Part shown: piece after piece, positions 11,013-46,904 of the stretch
How the letters are laid out: each line of letters begins with the position of its first letter
How positions within the stretch are numbered: position 1 is the stretch's first letter
Assembly (NCBI GenBank): GCA_020723105.1
Contig: DYJL01000006.1
Span: 1 to 64,000 of the forward strand
Source of the DNA: Nitrospira japonica
GTDB lineage: Bacteria; Nitrospirota; Thermodesulfovibrionia; UBA6902
Length of the DNA: 64,000 nt
Direction of reading: 5' to 3'
Position numbers and translations under genes: made by a program
Notes under the pieces: model-generated
Told to the model about the DNA's origin: nothing
The model's database searches: none
What the model saw: only the letters and a program-made list of their open reading frames with translations

Positions 11013-12101
11013 ATGAAATTTGTGTCTTATGATTTACTGCGGGGAGTATCAGAATCAACAGCAGCTCTCATTGACAGGAAAATATCCCGAAGAGACTTCA
11101 TGAAATTCTGCACCGGAATGGCTGCGTTACTGGCTTTGCCTGCTTCGTTTGCCCCCAAAATTGCCGAGGCCATAAGCGGTAAAAAACCCTATCTCGTATG
11201 GCTTGAATTTCAGGATTGTGCCGGAGATACAGAGGCTTTATTGAGGACCACGGCTCCGGTTGTCGGAGACATAGTCCTGGATGTTTTTGCGGTTGAATAT
11301 CATGAAACAATCATGGCGGCTGCCGGGAAACAGGCTGAAAAATCGCTGATGGATATAGTTAAAAATCATGAAGGGAATTATTTCGTAGTTGTTGAGGGTT
11401 CCATACCTGTTAAAGATGATGGAATATATTGCTGTGTCGGCGGAAGGACGGCCGTTGATATAGCAAGGGAAGTTTGTGGCAATGCGGTTGCAACGATAGC
11501 TGTTGGCACCTGTGCTACATACGGCGGCATTCCTGCTGCACGCCCTAACCCAACAGGGGCCGTTGGCGTAAAAGAGGCCATACCAAATGCAACCGTAATT
11601 AATTTACCAGGTTGCCCCGTGAATGCAGAGAATATTACTGCATGCGTTGTTCACTATCTTACATTTGGAGCCCTTCCCAACACGGACAAACTCGGAAGGC
11701 CTTATTTTGCCTTTGGCAAGAGAATTCATGACAATTGTGAGAGAAGGGCGCATTTTGACGCCGGGCAATTCGCAAGGCAATGGGGCGATGAAGGACACAG
11801 GCAGGGATGGTGCCTTTATGAAATGGGTTGCAAAGGCCCTGAGACCTTCCACAATTGTCCAACCATTAAATACAATGAAGGCACAAGCTGGCCTGTTCAG
11901 GCCGGACACGGATGTCTTGGCTGTTCTGAGCCTCATTTCTGGGATACCATGAGTCCCTTCTATAAGAGACTGCCGAAAGTTCCCGGCGTAAGCATTGAAA
12001 GCACGGCGGATAAAATCGGTGCAGGACTTGCCGCAGCTACAGCCGCAGGTCTTGTAATTCATGGAATCGGAAGGGCTATGTCGCTGAAAAAAGAAGAATA
12101 A
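11013..12101 (+). CDS. hyaA: Periplasmic uptake [NiFe] hydrogenase, small subunit
   Basis: 362 residues. A Tat signal (SRRDFMK, 25-31, plus hydrophobic stretch) sends the folded heterodimer to the periplasm. A C-terminal hydrophobic helix (about 333-352) should anchor it. Iron-sulfur ligands are visible: proximal C69, C167 and C201; distal H239, C242, C267 and C273; medial C282, C301 and C304. The position expected to give the second proximal-cluster Cys (CxxC) is Asp72 (DCAGDTE). A 3Cys/1Asp proximal cluster is known from the actinobacterial-type (group 1h) enzyme of Ralstonia, so this may be functional. It is first in a small/large/cytochrome b/protease operon, hence the hya-style name; the exact group is not assigned. 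Confidence 0.93.
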   Translation: MKFVSYDLLRGVSESTAALIDRKISRRDFMKFCTGMAALLALPASFAPKIAEAISGKKPYLVWLEFQDCAGDTEALLRTTAPVVGDIVLDVFAVEYHETIMAAAGKQAEKSLMDIVKNHEGNYFVVVEGSIPVKDDGIYCCVGGRTAVDIAREVCGNAVATIAVGTCATYGGIPAARPNPTGAVGVKEAIPNATVINLPGCPVNAENITACVVHYLTFGALPNTDKLGRPYFAFGKRIHDNCERRAHFDAGQFARQWGDEGHRQGWCLYEMGCKGPETFHNCPTIKYNEGTSWPVQAGHGCLGCSEPHFWDTMSPFYKRLPKVPGVSIESTADKIGAGLAAATAAGLVIHGIGRAMSLKKEE

Positions 12102-12130: not shown

Positions 12131-13840
12131 TTGGCAAAATTAGTAATTGACCCGATAACAAGGATTGAAGGCCACCTCAGGATTGAGGCCAAGGTTGAAG
12201 GCGGAAAGGTCGTTGACGCCTGGAGCTCCAGCACTATGTTCAGAGGGATTGAAATCATCCTGAAGGGGCGGGACCCGAGAGATGCCTGGGCTTTCACGCA
12301 GCGTATATGAGGGGTCTGAACAACGGTTCACGCAACCGCCTCGGTGAGAGCGGTCGAAGACGCATTAGGCATCACAATTCCTGACAACGCAAGAATTATT
12401 CGGAATCTCATTTCAGGTATTCAGTACGTTCAGGATCATGTAATTCATTTTTATCATCTACATGCTCTGGACTGGGTTGATATTGTAAGCGCATTAAAGG
12501 CAGACCCTGCAAAGACTTCAGCGCTTGCACAGTCCATTTCAGACTGGTCCCAATCGGGCACAGATTATTTTAAAGGCATTCAGGACAAACTCAAGGCTTT
12601 TGTTGAAAATGGCCAGCTCGGTCCATTCTCAAATGCTTACTGGGGGCATCCGGCATACAAACTTCCGGCAGAAGCAAATCTCATGGCAGTGGCCCATTAT
12701 CTTGAAGCGCTCGACTGGCAGAGAGACGTTATAAAAATACAGGCCCTTCTTGGAGCAAAGAATCCGCACGCACAGACCTATATTGTAGGCGGCATGTCCA
12801 TTCCTGTGGACCCCAACAGCCAGAATGCGCTTAATGCCGGAAGCATCGCCTTCATGCACGGCCTTGCAAAAAAAGCTCACGAGTTTGTTGACAAGGTATA
12901 TATCCCGGATGTCCTTGCTGTTGCGCCTTTCTATCTGGATTGGGCCGGACATGGAGCAGGCGTCGGCAATTTCCTCAGCTATGGTGAATTCCCAAATGAT
13001 AACAGGAGCAACACTGATAACCTCTGGCTGCAGCGTGGAATAATACTCAATAAGGATCTGTCAAAGGTTCATCCTGTTGATCATACAAAGGTCACAGAAT
13101 ATGTAACCCATTCATGGTATGAATATTCAGGCGGGGACAGTTCAGCAAAACATCCGTGGGAAGGTGAAACTAATTATAAATACACGGGCCCCAAGCCTCC
13201 ATATGAGTATCTCGATACAGATGCAAAATACTCCTGGCTGAAAGCCCCGCGTTACGATGATAAGGCCATGGAAGTAGGCCCTCTCTCAAGGATGCTCGTA
13301 GCCTACGCCTCAGGACATAAGAGGGTGCAGGATGTAGTAAATGGTGTGCTGAAAGCATTGGGTGTGGGCCCGGCAGCATTGTTTTCAACCCTTGGAAGAA
13401 TCGCTGCGCGTGCTATTGAAACCCTGGTGACTGCGGAACAGCTCCCTGTATGGATTGACCAGCTTGCTGCGAATATGAAAAAGGGTGATCTGAAAATTCA
13501 TGCAGGTGAAAAGTGGGATCCGTCCGAATGGCCTGAGGAGGCAAGGGGTTATGGTTTGCACGAGGCTCCAAGAGGAGCGCTTGGCCACTGGGTAAATATC
13601 AGGAACGGGAAGATTGTAAATTACCAGTGTGTGGTTCCCGGCACCTGGAACGGCTCCCCGAGAGACGCCAATAACCAGAGAGGTCCGTATGAAGAGGCGC
13701 TTATAGGAACGCCGGTAGCCAATATTGAGCAGCCTGTTGAGATACTCAGAACAGTCCATTCCTTCGACCCCTGTATGGCGTGTGCTGTTCATGTGGTAGA
13801 CCCTGATGGCAATGAGGTTACAAGGATAAGAATAAAATAA
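12131..13840 (+). CDS. hyaB: [NiFe] hydrogenase large subunit with two in-frame UGA codons (probable double selenoprotein)
   Basis: Catalytic large subunit, 569 residues if both internal UGAs are read through. The TTG start at 12131 has a ribosome binding site (GGGAGGTGA) 5-6 bp upstream. The frame opens with the canonical [20 protein letters not shown], so the GTG at 12344 is not the start. UGA at 12308-12310 (codon 60) and 12317-12319 (codon 63) sit where all relatives have the N-terminal CxxC (RI-C-GV-C-TTVHA). The frame and homology continue unbroken afterwards. The C-terminal motif keeps cysteines (DPC548xxC551xxH554), and the 15-residue tail after H554 fits cleavage by the downstream protease. 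Selenocysteine at both positions is inferred; nonfunctional decay or sequencing error would need two precise hits. Confidence 0.85.
12335..12354 (+). promoter_or_regulatory. SECIS-like hairpin downstream of the two UGA codons
   Basis: ACCGC (12335-12339) pairs with GCGGT (12350-12354). Inside, CTC (12340-12342) pairs with GAG (12346-12348), leaving one bulged A and an apical GGU (12343-12345). The apex is about 24 nt after the second UGA and 33 nt after the first, both within the distance usual for bacterial SECIS elements. A G-rich apical loop with GGU resembles the E. coli fdhF element. A competing small hairpin, CGGTT/AACCG (12324-12338), also exists. I folded this by eye only. Confidence 0.5.
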
Positions 13841-13855
13841 GAAAGGGGGATGGAT

Positions 13856-14509
13856 ATGAAAAATGAGCGAGTGAGAGTATATACCTGGGAATTCCCTATA
13901 AGGTTTGCCCACTGGATTAATTTTCTCTGTATCCTGGCCCTTTCAGTTACGGGTTTCTATATCGGCGCCCCTTTTGTACATGCATATTCCTCGAAACAGT
14001 GGATTATGGGCTGGATGCGGCTCATTCATTTTGTTGCGGCATATGCTTTTATGATGAGTATAATCATCAGGCTCTACTGGTCGCTTATGGGGAATAAGTA
14101 TGCATGCATGTGCAGTTGGCTAAGCAACATTGGGGATGTTGGCAAAGACATCAAGTGCTATCTCCTGCTGGGCGATAAGACGAAATGCCGTGTCGGACAT
14201 TCCGCACTCGCAGGGCTGACGTACCTGATCATCTTTGTAATTTTCATTTTTGAGATCGTTTCAGGTTTTGCCCTGTATTCGGCAAACCATACAGGCGCAA
14301 TCTGGACGCTTCTCGGAGGATGGCTGACAGGCGTTATGCTGCTCCCAACTATCAAATTGTATCATCACATCTTCATGTATGTAATACTTGCATTTGTTAT
14401 GGTTCATGTTTATATTGCATGGTTTTCGGATTCCCGAGATAAGATCGGCCTGATGGGCTCGATTTTCACAGGGTACAAGTTTGTGCCAGAAAAGGATTTG
14501 GAGCAATAA
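13856..14509 (+). CDS. hyaC: Ni/Fe-hydrogenase b-type cytochrome subunit
   Basis: About 217 residues with four transmembrane segments (near 20-40, 60-80, 120-145 and 165-190). Conserved histidines for two b hemes are visible (RFAHWINF near the start, MRLIHF, HSALAG, and KLYHHIFMYVILAFVMVHVY). It takes electrons from the small subunit to the quinone pool. I prefer the ATG at 13856, 6 bp after the GGGGG of the ribosome binding site, over the ATG at 13850, which is too close. It follows the large subunit by 15 bp and is closed by a terminator at 14543. Confidence 0.92.
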   Translation: MKNERVRVYTWEFPIRFAHWINFLCILALSVTGFYIGAPFVHAYSSKQWIMGWMRLIHFVAAYAFMMSIIIRLYWSLMGNKYACMCSWLSNIGDVGKDIKCYLLLGDKTKCRVGHSALAGLTYLIIFVIFIFEIVSGFALYSANHTGAIWTLLGGWLTGVMLLPTIKLYHHIFMYVILAFVMVHVYIAWFSDSRDKIGLMGSIFTGYKFVPEKDLEQ

Positions 14510-14593: not shown

Positions 14594-15088
14594 TTGAACA
14601 TAGCAGTTTTTGGCATCGGCAATATACTTTTGAGTGATGATGGTGTTGGGGTGCATGCAATAAATAAATTAAAAGAAGAGTACACGTTTCCGCCCTCCGT
14701 TGAGTTGATAGACGGAGGAACTAAGGGGCTGGATCTCCTGCCGCTGTTTGAAGGCAGGGACAAGGTTTTGATTATTGACGCTGCGAATTTCAGGAAAGAG
14801 GCTGGAACTATAGACATCGTAGAAGGCGACAGGCTTCCCGCTTTTCTGAGTTTAAAACTCTCAGTGCATCAGATAGGACTTCCGGATACGCTTTTTGCAA
14901 TGCGTTTACTGGAAATTACTCCTGCCGAGATGTGCCTGATTGGAATACAGCCAGAGTCAATGGAAACAGGGACAGAATTATCAGAGACGATACAGGTAAA
15001 GCTAACGGACCTTGCAGATAACGTTATCCAGAAATTGAGAAGTTGGGGCGTTGACGTGACGCCTGTAAAGGATTCCCATTACATGTAA
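14594..15088 (+). CDS. hyaD: Hydrogenase maturation endopeptidase (HyaD/HybD/HycI family)
   Basis: 164 residues starting at TTG with a strong AGGAGGGG site. The family nickel-sensing residues are present: D16 (GIGNILLSDDGVG), D62 (IIDAAN) and H92 (SVHQIGLPD), matching E16/D62/H93 of E. coli HybD. After nickel insertion it removes the C-terminal tail of the large subunit behind the DPCxxCxxH motif. Its presence argues that the neighbouring large subunit, despite its UGA codons, is still made and processed. The 3' end overlaps uppP on the opposite strand by 10 bp. Confidence 0.93.
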   Translation: MNIAVFGIGNILLSDDGVGVHAINKLKEEYTFPPSVELIDGGTKGLDLLPLFEGRDKVLIIDAANFRKEAGTIDIVEGDRLPAFLSLKLSVHQIGLPDTLFAMRLLEITPAEMCLIGIQPESMETGTELSETIQVKLTDLADNVIQKLRSWGVDVTPVKDSHYM

Positions 15089-45784: not shown

Positions 45785-46904
45785 TTATGCAGACATCCTT
45801 TTTTCTTTTCTGAATAACAGATACTCTTTTATGAAACCATCTATTCCGCCGTCAAGTACGGCATTCACATTGCCTGCCTCATAACCGGTCCTGTGGTCTT
45901 TGATAAGTTGATACGGCTGGAGGGTATAGGACCTGATCTGACTGCCCCAGGCAATGTCTTTTTTCTCTCCGATAAAGCCTTCGATTTTTTCATCCTGTTC
46001 TTTTTTCTTCAGGGTGTAGAGACGTGCCTTGAGTATCTTCAGTGCAGTGGACTTGTTCTTGAACTGGGATCGTTCGTTCTGACAGCTTATAACGATGCCG
46101 GTAGGCATATGAGTAATCCGGACTGCAGAGGAAGTCTTGTTTACATGCTGACCGCCTGCACCGGAGGCCCTGAAGGTGTCTATTTTCAGATCGTCTTCGT
46201 TTACTTCTATTTCAATGTCTTCACTGATGTCCGGATAGACAAGGATGGCAGCAAATGAAGTATGGCGCCTCTTGTTTGCATCAAAAGGCGAAATCCTCAC
46301 AAGGCGGTGAACGCCTGCTTCACATTTTAAATAACCGTATGCATAAGTCCCGCTGATGGTCAGCGTGGCGCTTTTTATCCCGGCTTCTTCACCGGACAGG
46401 AGTTCTACAATTTCCACTTTAAATCCTTTACGCTCAGCCCATCTTATATACATCCTCATCAGTATCTGTGCCCAGTCCTGGCTTTCGGTGCCGCCTGCAC
46501 CAGGATGGATTGTCATTATTGCATTGTTTTTGTCTTCTTCCAGTGAAAGGGTGCTTTTTAATTCAATGTCATCAAGTTCTGATATAAGATTTCCAATGTC
46601 TTCTTCCGCATCTTTTAACAGGCTTTCACCGCCTTCTTCACCGGAAAGCTCCAGAAGGATGTGAAGGTCTTCGTATTTTTTCTCTATTGAATAAAGGGGC
46701 TGGAGGGAATTTTCTATAGCTGATTTTTCCTTAAGCAGTTCCTGTGCTTTTGCCGGATCTTCCCATAAATTTTCAGCTACAAGCTCTTTTTGTAATATTC
46801 CGAGGCGTGCTAATTGAGAGGGGACATCAAAGATACCTCCTGAGGGTATCTATTCTTGATTGAAATTCATTTAATTTATCTTTTAATTCATCGTGCGTAA
46901 CCAT
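45785..46904 (-). CDS. prfB: Peptide chain release factor 2 with programmed +1 frameshift
   Basis: About 372 residues once the frames are joined. ATG at 46904 (ribosome binding site GGAGGT) opens 25 codons ending CTT, then an in-frame UGA (46827-46829). Shifting +1 at CTT-T enters the long frame (DVPSQLARLG...). The main part has the SPF tripeptide that reads UGA (RISPFDANKRRHTSF) and the catalytic GGQ (GAGGQHVNK). Low RF2 lets ribosomes shift and make more RF2. This is intact autoregulation, not a pseudogene, and shows UGA is a stop signal here. Confidence 0.96.
46827..46840 (-). promoter_or_regulatory. prfB programmed frameshift site
   Basis: On the minus strand the site reads AGGAGG-TAT-CTT-TGA, an internal Shine-Dalgarno three bases before the CUU slippery codon and the UGA. 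This matches the classic RF2 frameshift signal (AGGGGGTATCTTTGA in E. coli) at the same codon 26. Confidence 0.95.

Follow-up and report, generated by a model that had tools for sequence, protein, structure and literature searches.

A Nitrospirota group 1 hydrogenase with two predicted selenocysteine nickel ligands and an aspartate in place of a proximal-cluster cysteine

Introduction

Which kind of hydrogenase is encoded by a locus whose small subunit carries an aspartate where a cysteine of the proximal iron-sulfur cluster is expected and whose large subunit gene contains two in-frame UGA codons, and do the two peculiarities depend on each other? The locus belongs to the window, that is, the whole stretch of 64,000 nucleotides analysed here (contig DYJL01000006.1, Nitrospirota). 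In the following, SS and LS stand for the small and large subunit, U for predicted selenocysteine (Sec), and D/N for Asp or Asn at SS position 72.

Results

Operon and Physiological Setting

The genes follow each other in the order SS, LS, cytochrome b and maturation protease:

11013–12101, plus strand: hydrogenase SS, 362 aa, with Tat signal (RRDFMK) and predicted C-terminal membrane helix
12131–13840, plus strand: hydrogenase LS starting at TTG, 569 aa when the UGAs are read as Sec
13850–14509, plus strand: Ni/Fe-hydrogenase b-type cytochrome, the quinone-facing partner (TIGR02125, 145.6 bits, cut-off 121.5)
14594–15088, plus strand: HyaD/HybD-type maturation endopeptidase (TIGR00140, 152.9 bits, cut-off 151.8)

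With 451.7 bits against TIGR00391 (cut-off 179.5), the SS scores as a group 1 [NiFe] hydrogenase small subunit (hydA), its N-terminus matches the Tat domain TIGR01409, and its AlphaFold2 model (mean pLDDT of 81, with low confidence in the C-terminal helix) finds group 1 small subunits in a Foldseek search at an E value of 1e-33. HypD is present in the genome, and dsrAB and dsrC, identified by reading, are located close by. The locus is best read as encoding a putative group 1 uptake hydrogenase, anchored in the membrane of an anaerobic Nitrospirota bacterium, and operon make-up together with the nearby dsrAB and dsrC fits H2 oxidation at the outer membrane face into the quinone pool.

Proximal-Cluster Motif of the Small Subunit

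The SS motif reads VWLEFQ-D-C69-A-G-D72-TEALL, and alignment to solved small subunits puts C69 and D72 into the two columns of the proximal-cluster CxxC. The positions concerned are:

11217–11219 (TGT), plus strand: C69, first proximal-cluster Cys by alignment to solved structures; Cys in all D/N rows
11226–11228 (GAT), plus strand: D72, replacing the second proximal-cluster Cys by alignment to solved small subunits and HofK
11511–11513, plus strand: C167, third proximal-cluster Cys (GTC motif); Cys in 153 of 153 paired sequences listed
11613–11615, plus strand: C201, fourth proximal-cluster Cys (PGC motif); Cys in 153 of 153 paired sequences listed

Hence, the proposal of the sequence-only reading that Asp replaces a cysteine of the CxxC is borne out, with D72 standing in the second-Cys column of solved structures. 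The four-Cys proximal cluster typical of TIGR00391 members, which the model does not demand, is not found; the set is C69, D72, C167 and C201. As judged from the alignment, three of the four proximal-cluster cysteines are left in the SS and the fourth position is Asp72. The cysteines of the medial and distal clusters are intact.

UGA Codons of the Large Subunit

The LS has two UGA codons, as had been stated beforehand, and both fall into its N-terminal Ni-ligand motif:

12308–12310, plus strand: UGA codon 60, in the N-terminal motif, predicted Sec at the place of the terminal Ni ligand
12317–12319, plus strand: UGA codon 63, predicted Sec at the Ni-Fe bridging ligand position
12335–12354, plus strand: SECIS-like hairpin of bacterial type (ACCGC-CTC-GGT-GAG-A-GCGGT), 15 nt downstream of UGA codon 63, with covariation and synonymous constraint
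13772–13783, plus strand: C-terminal motif C548-M-A-C551 (DPCMAC), both Cys (TGT and TGT)

When read through, the motif is RI-U-GV-U-TTVHA (U60 and U63), and these residues we take to be, in the standard numbering of D. gigas, the terminal Ni ligand and the Ni-Fe bridging ligand. At exactly these two codons, TGA alternates with TGC or TGT among homologues, and over 100 sequences belonging to several phyla have kept UxxU, with an intact downstream frame of 70–94% identity.

In UxxU genes, no third codon positions of the LS are under stronger constraint than those of codons 72, 65 and 73 (0.07, 0.29 and 0.45 bits; mean of the rest 1.74), while such constraint is absent from the region of LS 65–73 in all-Cys genes. 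The 5-bp stem shows compensatory changes at one pair (A-T, T-A and G-C) and at the next (G-C and C-G). Of 43 distinct UxxU segments, 37 form it, a count including a slightly shifted form which is that of the window itself; 1000 shuffles gave 19 on average and 28 at most. Among all-Cys segments, the stem was found in one of 26. The same test in CxxU genes gave a weak result (12 of 26, with 12 of 1000 shuffles reaching 12), and the folding energy of the SECIS region alone gave no signal against codon shuffles. Synonymous constraint and covariation together are decisive evidence for the predicted SECIS element.

The genome also encodes selenoprotein machinery, namely a tRNA-Sec (anticodon UCA), SelA, SelB and SelD. 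The gene for the latter (G000 contig 88:3446-4357, L278) has itself one in-frame UGA, and the genome's own selenophosphate synthetase is thus a predicted selenoprotein. The presence of tRNA-Sec was also considered as a discriminator between genomes and rejected, as it is nearly class-wide and hence uninformative. In-frame UGAs at Cys positions of homologues with a SECIS hairpin downstream mark the LS as a selenoprotein gene, and the conservation of UxxU in more than 100 sequences, the covarying hairpin that all-Cys relatives lack and the Sec machinery of the genome convincingly identify the UGAs as predicted selenocysteines, Sec60 and Sec63 replacing both N-terminal Ni-ligating cysteines.

Other LS variants were encountered as well. 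CxxU large subunits, in which a single UGA replaces the second N-terminal Cys and Sec is predicted at the bridging position only, occur in Hyb-like enzymes (with a hybAB-sized gap) and in Anaerolineae (L040, L052, L092, L199, L240, L246 and others). In L199 (G345 contig 22), a CxxC+CxxU Hyb-type operon is followed directly, in the same orientation, by a CxxN+UxxU operon. All-Cys LS paralogues without recognizable SS upstream (L226, L228 and L236, about 67–71% identical) were seen in genomes that also have a UGA-containing copy.

Asp and Asn at Position 72 Among Relatives

In the window's family, an SS match was obtained in 26 of 37 genomes. The close orthologues have CxxD or CxxN and, where the locus extends far enough, the SS is followed by a large subunit with two UGAs. 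Among the matches listed, the 93 deduplicated non-Cys rows have D (61%) or N (39%) at position 72 and nothing else, with GAT/GAC and AAT/AAC codons versus TGC/TGT. The sequence-only reading spoke of Asp, which is right for the window but not family-wide, where the residue is D or N (about 39% Asn). As D or N stands at this position in dozens of independent MAGs, D72 is not a chance or assembly error. In 12 of 36 Asn rows the motif is C-C-G-N, with an extra Cys70 beside the first proximal Cys (L012, L013, L197, L205, L210, L217 and others). A second proximal variant was observed in Nitrospirota loci L252, L255, L256, L258, L259 and L261, having Asp at the first Cys of the CxxC (D-S/T-G-C) together with all-Cys large subunits reading CGVCPTSHG/A.

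SS/LS pairs were drawn from the loci of a whole-phylum search, from fetched regions and from a pattern scan of bacterial genomes; since the scan demanded a UGA at the second N-terminal position, the counts describe a sample and not true frequencies. Among the matches listed, duplicates included, UxxU large subunits are paired with CxxD at least 87 times, with CxxN at least 46 times and with CxxC at least 17 times. CxxU large subunits are found with CxxC (at least 30) and CxxD (at least 6), and all-Cys large subunits with CxxC (at least 13), DxxC (at least 6) and CxxD (at least 3).

Phylogenetic Relation Between Sec and Asp/Asn

A mixture-model tree, calculated with the trait columns removed and rooted on Hyb-type enzymes, places the all-Cys genus f11 as sister to a Sec-containing clade that holds every D/N row. 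Within this clade, the Nitrospirota branch with the window (68 sequences, SH-aLRT 97) is wholly Asp or Asn at about 61:39, and the Chloroflexota are mostly CxxC with few D/N lineages. About four changes between Cys and D/N and eight to nine between D and N are counted on the tree. In an LG+G4 tree, f11 falls inside the D clade, which would mean a joint reversal of both traits; the mixture-model placement is preferred because it is less prone to long-branch joins. Among the solved structures compared, none belongs to the clade with universal D/N.

Chloroflexota UxxU enzymes mostly keep CxxC in their SS, so Sec does not need D/N. Asp is kept, on the other hand, where Sec is lost (L203, L208 and L230, CxxD with all-Cys LS) or half lost (L225, L227, L229 and L231). 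As far as these sequences tell, the two changes are associated but separable, and D/N apparently came up in enzymes that already had Sec, with neither trait needing the other now. That both sides of the path from the Ni-Fe site to the proximal cluster are altered in the same enzyme, as had been emphasized before, consequently holds for the window (D72 with UxxU), whereas the coupling is loose in the family, given the Chloroflexota UxxU+CxxC enzymes and L203, L208 and L230. On the trees, which offer only two to three usable independent contrasts, association of D/N with Sec or C155 was not significant, and none of the couplings of D versus N with SS280, SS278, SS70, SS241, LS283, LS223 and LS224 reached significance.

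Discussion

Nature of the Proximal Cluster

Our best explanation of the whole, to which we give about even credence, is a functional periplasmic group 1 uptake hydrogenase with Sec60 and Sec63, a proximal [4Fe-4S] cluster held in part by D/N and a role against oxidative damage. Ni would be held by two Sec, one terminal and one bridging, and two Cys, while the proximal [4Fe-4S] would sit on three Cys with its fourth iron weakly held by the Asp or Asn oxygen. Such an oxygen could slightly raise the cluster potential and make this corner less prone to thiolate oxidation; together, the Sec pair and the D/N site may bias the enzyme toward H2 oxidation and let it recover quickly from oxidative damage. 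These protective and potential-raising roles of D/N and Sec are suggested by analogy with other enzymes. The position of Sec60 presumably corresponds to Cys75 in the LS of [NiFeSe] enzymes. For classical [NiFeSe] hydrogenases, one study (PMC7324405) cites as damage sulfinate at non-Sec Cys, oxidation of LS Cys75 and oxygenation of the proximal cluster. As both of these places, the N-terminal Ni-ligand Cys and the proximal cluster, are altered here, protection from or reversal of oxidative damage and a modest upward shift in potential are suggested.

Asn, a poor Fe-S ligand, stands in about 39% of the non-Cys rows, so that the ligand need not be a carboxylate; and with eight to nine interchanges of D and N, the conserved feature seems to be the lack of a Cys rather than an Asp ligand. 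In view of the Asn variants, a [3Fe-4S] or labile cluster has to be taken seriously as an alternative. In its [3Fe-4S] form, which we regard as possible if somewhat unlikely, the cluster would rest on three Cys with D/N72 filling the corner as a non-ligand, resulting in a much higher potential and a strong bias to H2 oxidation as in Huc. The free exchange of Asp and Asn over these changes points that way, and CxxD ferredoxins switch between [3Fe-4S] and [4Fe-4S] clusters. Moreover, Huc works with three [3Fe-4S] clusters (PMC10017518). However, Ala, Ser and Gly never occur at position 72, suggesting that an oxygen ligand is wanted. In the published structure of HofK, furthermore, the Asp of a C-x-G-D motif in the same column reportedly binds a proximal [4Fe-4S].

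We regard it as improbable that D/N is simply tolerated and functionally neutral, having become fixed in the Nitrospirota branch with the two residues replacing each other by drift. The small number of Cys to D/N changes, about four with the largest clade representing a single event, would suit such drift, and so would the lack of significant association with Sec, C155 or any residue tested; but throughout a clade as wide as the class no residue other than D or N stands here, and D/N reappears in separate Chloroflexota lineages (L141, L107 and the L049/L055/L058/L118 group).

We consider it quite improbable that a substitute Cys (C155, C70 of the CCGN rows or C141) serves as fourth ligand of an ordinary Cys4 [4Fe-4S]. 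The candidate most enriched with D/N is:

11475–11477, plus strand: C155, D/N-enriched Cys, probably too far from the cluster to ligate (position inferred)

C155 is found in 92% of D/N rows versus 4% of Chloroflexota CxxC rows, L227, L229 and L231 lack it but have Cys at 151, one helical turn away, and C70 occurs in 12 of 36 Asn rows. However, C155 is missing in seven D/N rows, is present in two C72 rows and behaves mostly as a clade marker on the tree. The model places it where a helix (model residues 102–111) ends, ahead of the strand to C167; this is probably the sheet end away from the cluster. C141 is as common in CxxC rows. The search for an alternative fourth ligand gave no Cys shared by all D/N rows and missing from the Cys rows.

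Virtually no credence, finally, is left for the LS UGAs being stops in a decaying pseudogene or an assembly error: UGA is a normal stop here too, judging from a prfB (RF2)-like ORF (45785–46516, minus strand) identified by reading, but this reading is opposed by the conservation of the UGAs in several phyla, the intact downstream frame, the SECIS covariation and the Sec machinery. The start of the prfB-like ORF lies within the protein, which agrees with the +1 frameshift usual in this gene.

Novelty and Significance

To our knowledge, every characterized [NiFeSe] hydrogenase has one active-site Sec, which is the terminal ligand in the C-terminal motif. For catalytic hydrogenase subunits, UxxC is the only Sec motif given in two reviews of prokaryotic selenoproteins (2022, 2026). 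In the open-access literature, no description of a UxxU hydrogenase was found; subscription papers were outside this search and may hold an earlier one. It is likely that the locus represents an undescribed hydrogenase lineage of Nitrospirota, Chloroflexota and some MAGs labelled Deltaproteobacteria with Sec at both N-terminal Ni ligands, the Nitrospirota branch having in addition a proximal Cys changed to Asp or Asn and thus a 3Cys/1Asp, 3Cys/1Asn or [3Fe-4S] site.

From a natural double-Sec site, including a bridging selenolate, next to a proximal cluster with a non-Cys position, one could learn how Se and cluster ligands determine O2 recovery, catalytic bias and overpotential, and the tree provides natural controls for this (UxxU+CxxC, UxxU+CxxD, UxxU+CxxN, CxxU+CxxD and CxxC+CxxD). 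Standard gene calling places the LS start after the UGAs and misses the N-terminal Ni-ligand motif, so that H2 oxidizers with UxxU may be miscounted.

Comparison With Known Hydrogenases

The enzyme was previously likened to the actinobacterial-type hydrogenase HofKG (group 1h) of Ralstonia (Cupriavidus). This likeness is confined to the Asp in the second proximal Cys column (C-D-G-D in HofK versus C-A-G-D in the window) and does not extend to kinship, as SS identity is 27% and HofG has an all-Cys L2 motif (SRICGICGDNH, CGIC) and no recoded codons. HofK (L276:11963-13018 on pHG1, NC_005241.1) is identical to PDB 5AA5 chain A; on pHG1 it is annotated as "hydrogenase expression protein HypE". Among the matched solved small subunits it came last, with 99 bits versus 335 for D. 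vulgaris, and group 1h is thus not the closest kin. Given 27% identity to HofK versus 48–50% to standard group 1 enzymes, and the all-Cys HofG, the two Asp residues are most simply seen as convergent at the same ligand position rather than as shared by ancestry. The oxygen insensitivity that the comparison implied cannot be inferred for the window enzyme.

With the standard group 1 enzymes of D. vulgaris Miyazaki F and A. vinosum and Hyd-2 of E. coli, it shares this 48–50% identity, the fold, the medial and distal ligands and three of four proximal ligands, but these have CxxC both in the SS and in the L2 motif of the LS. The O2-tolerant MBH/Hyd-1 enzymes with Cys6 [4Fe-3S] resemble it in being membrane-anchored uptake enzymes with cytochrome b and an altered proximal cluster; however, they gain two Cys, whereas the window SS loses one, and in its alignment to MBH no equivalents of the supernumerary Cys19 and Cys120 of group 1d are found (G71 and G in the C120 column).

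Classical [NiFeSe] enzymes (HysAB and the VhuU/FrhA type, UxxC) likewise use a UGA-encoded Sec as Ni ligand. Theirs, however, takes the place of the first Cys in the C-terminal motif, while the window enzyme is predicted to have Sec at both N-terminal and Cys at both C-terminal positions. As the C-terminal CxxC is still Cys, it is not a classical [NiFeSe] enzyme, and it scores below the respective cut-offs (LS against HysA NF045518, 424 bits, cut-off 780; SS against NF045520, 251.5 bits, cut-off 470). The CxxU hydrogenases (Hyb-like enzymes of Nitrospirota and Desulfobacterota, and Anaerolineae) share the UGA at the second N-terminal, bridging Cys but keep the first, and their SS is mostly CxxC (30 of 36 pairs among the matches listed). 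Huc of Mycobacterium smegmatis (group 2a) also has an altered iron-sulfur relay that reportedly shifts the potential upward (PMC10017518), but it belongs to another group, uses three [3Fe-4S] clusters and has no Sec described. By its predicted ligands, the window enzyme is distinct from every hydrogenase compared at two neighbouring metal sites.
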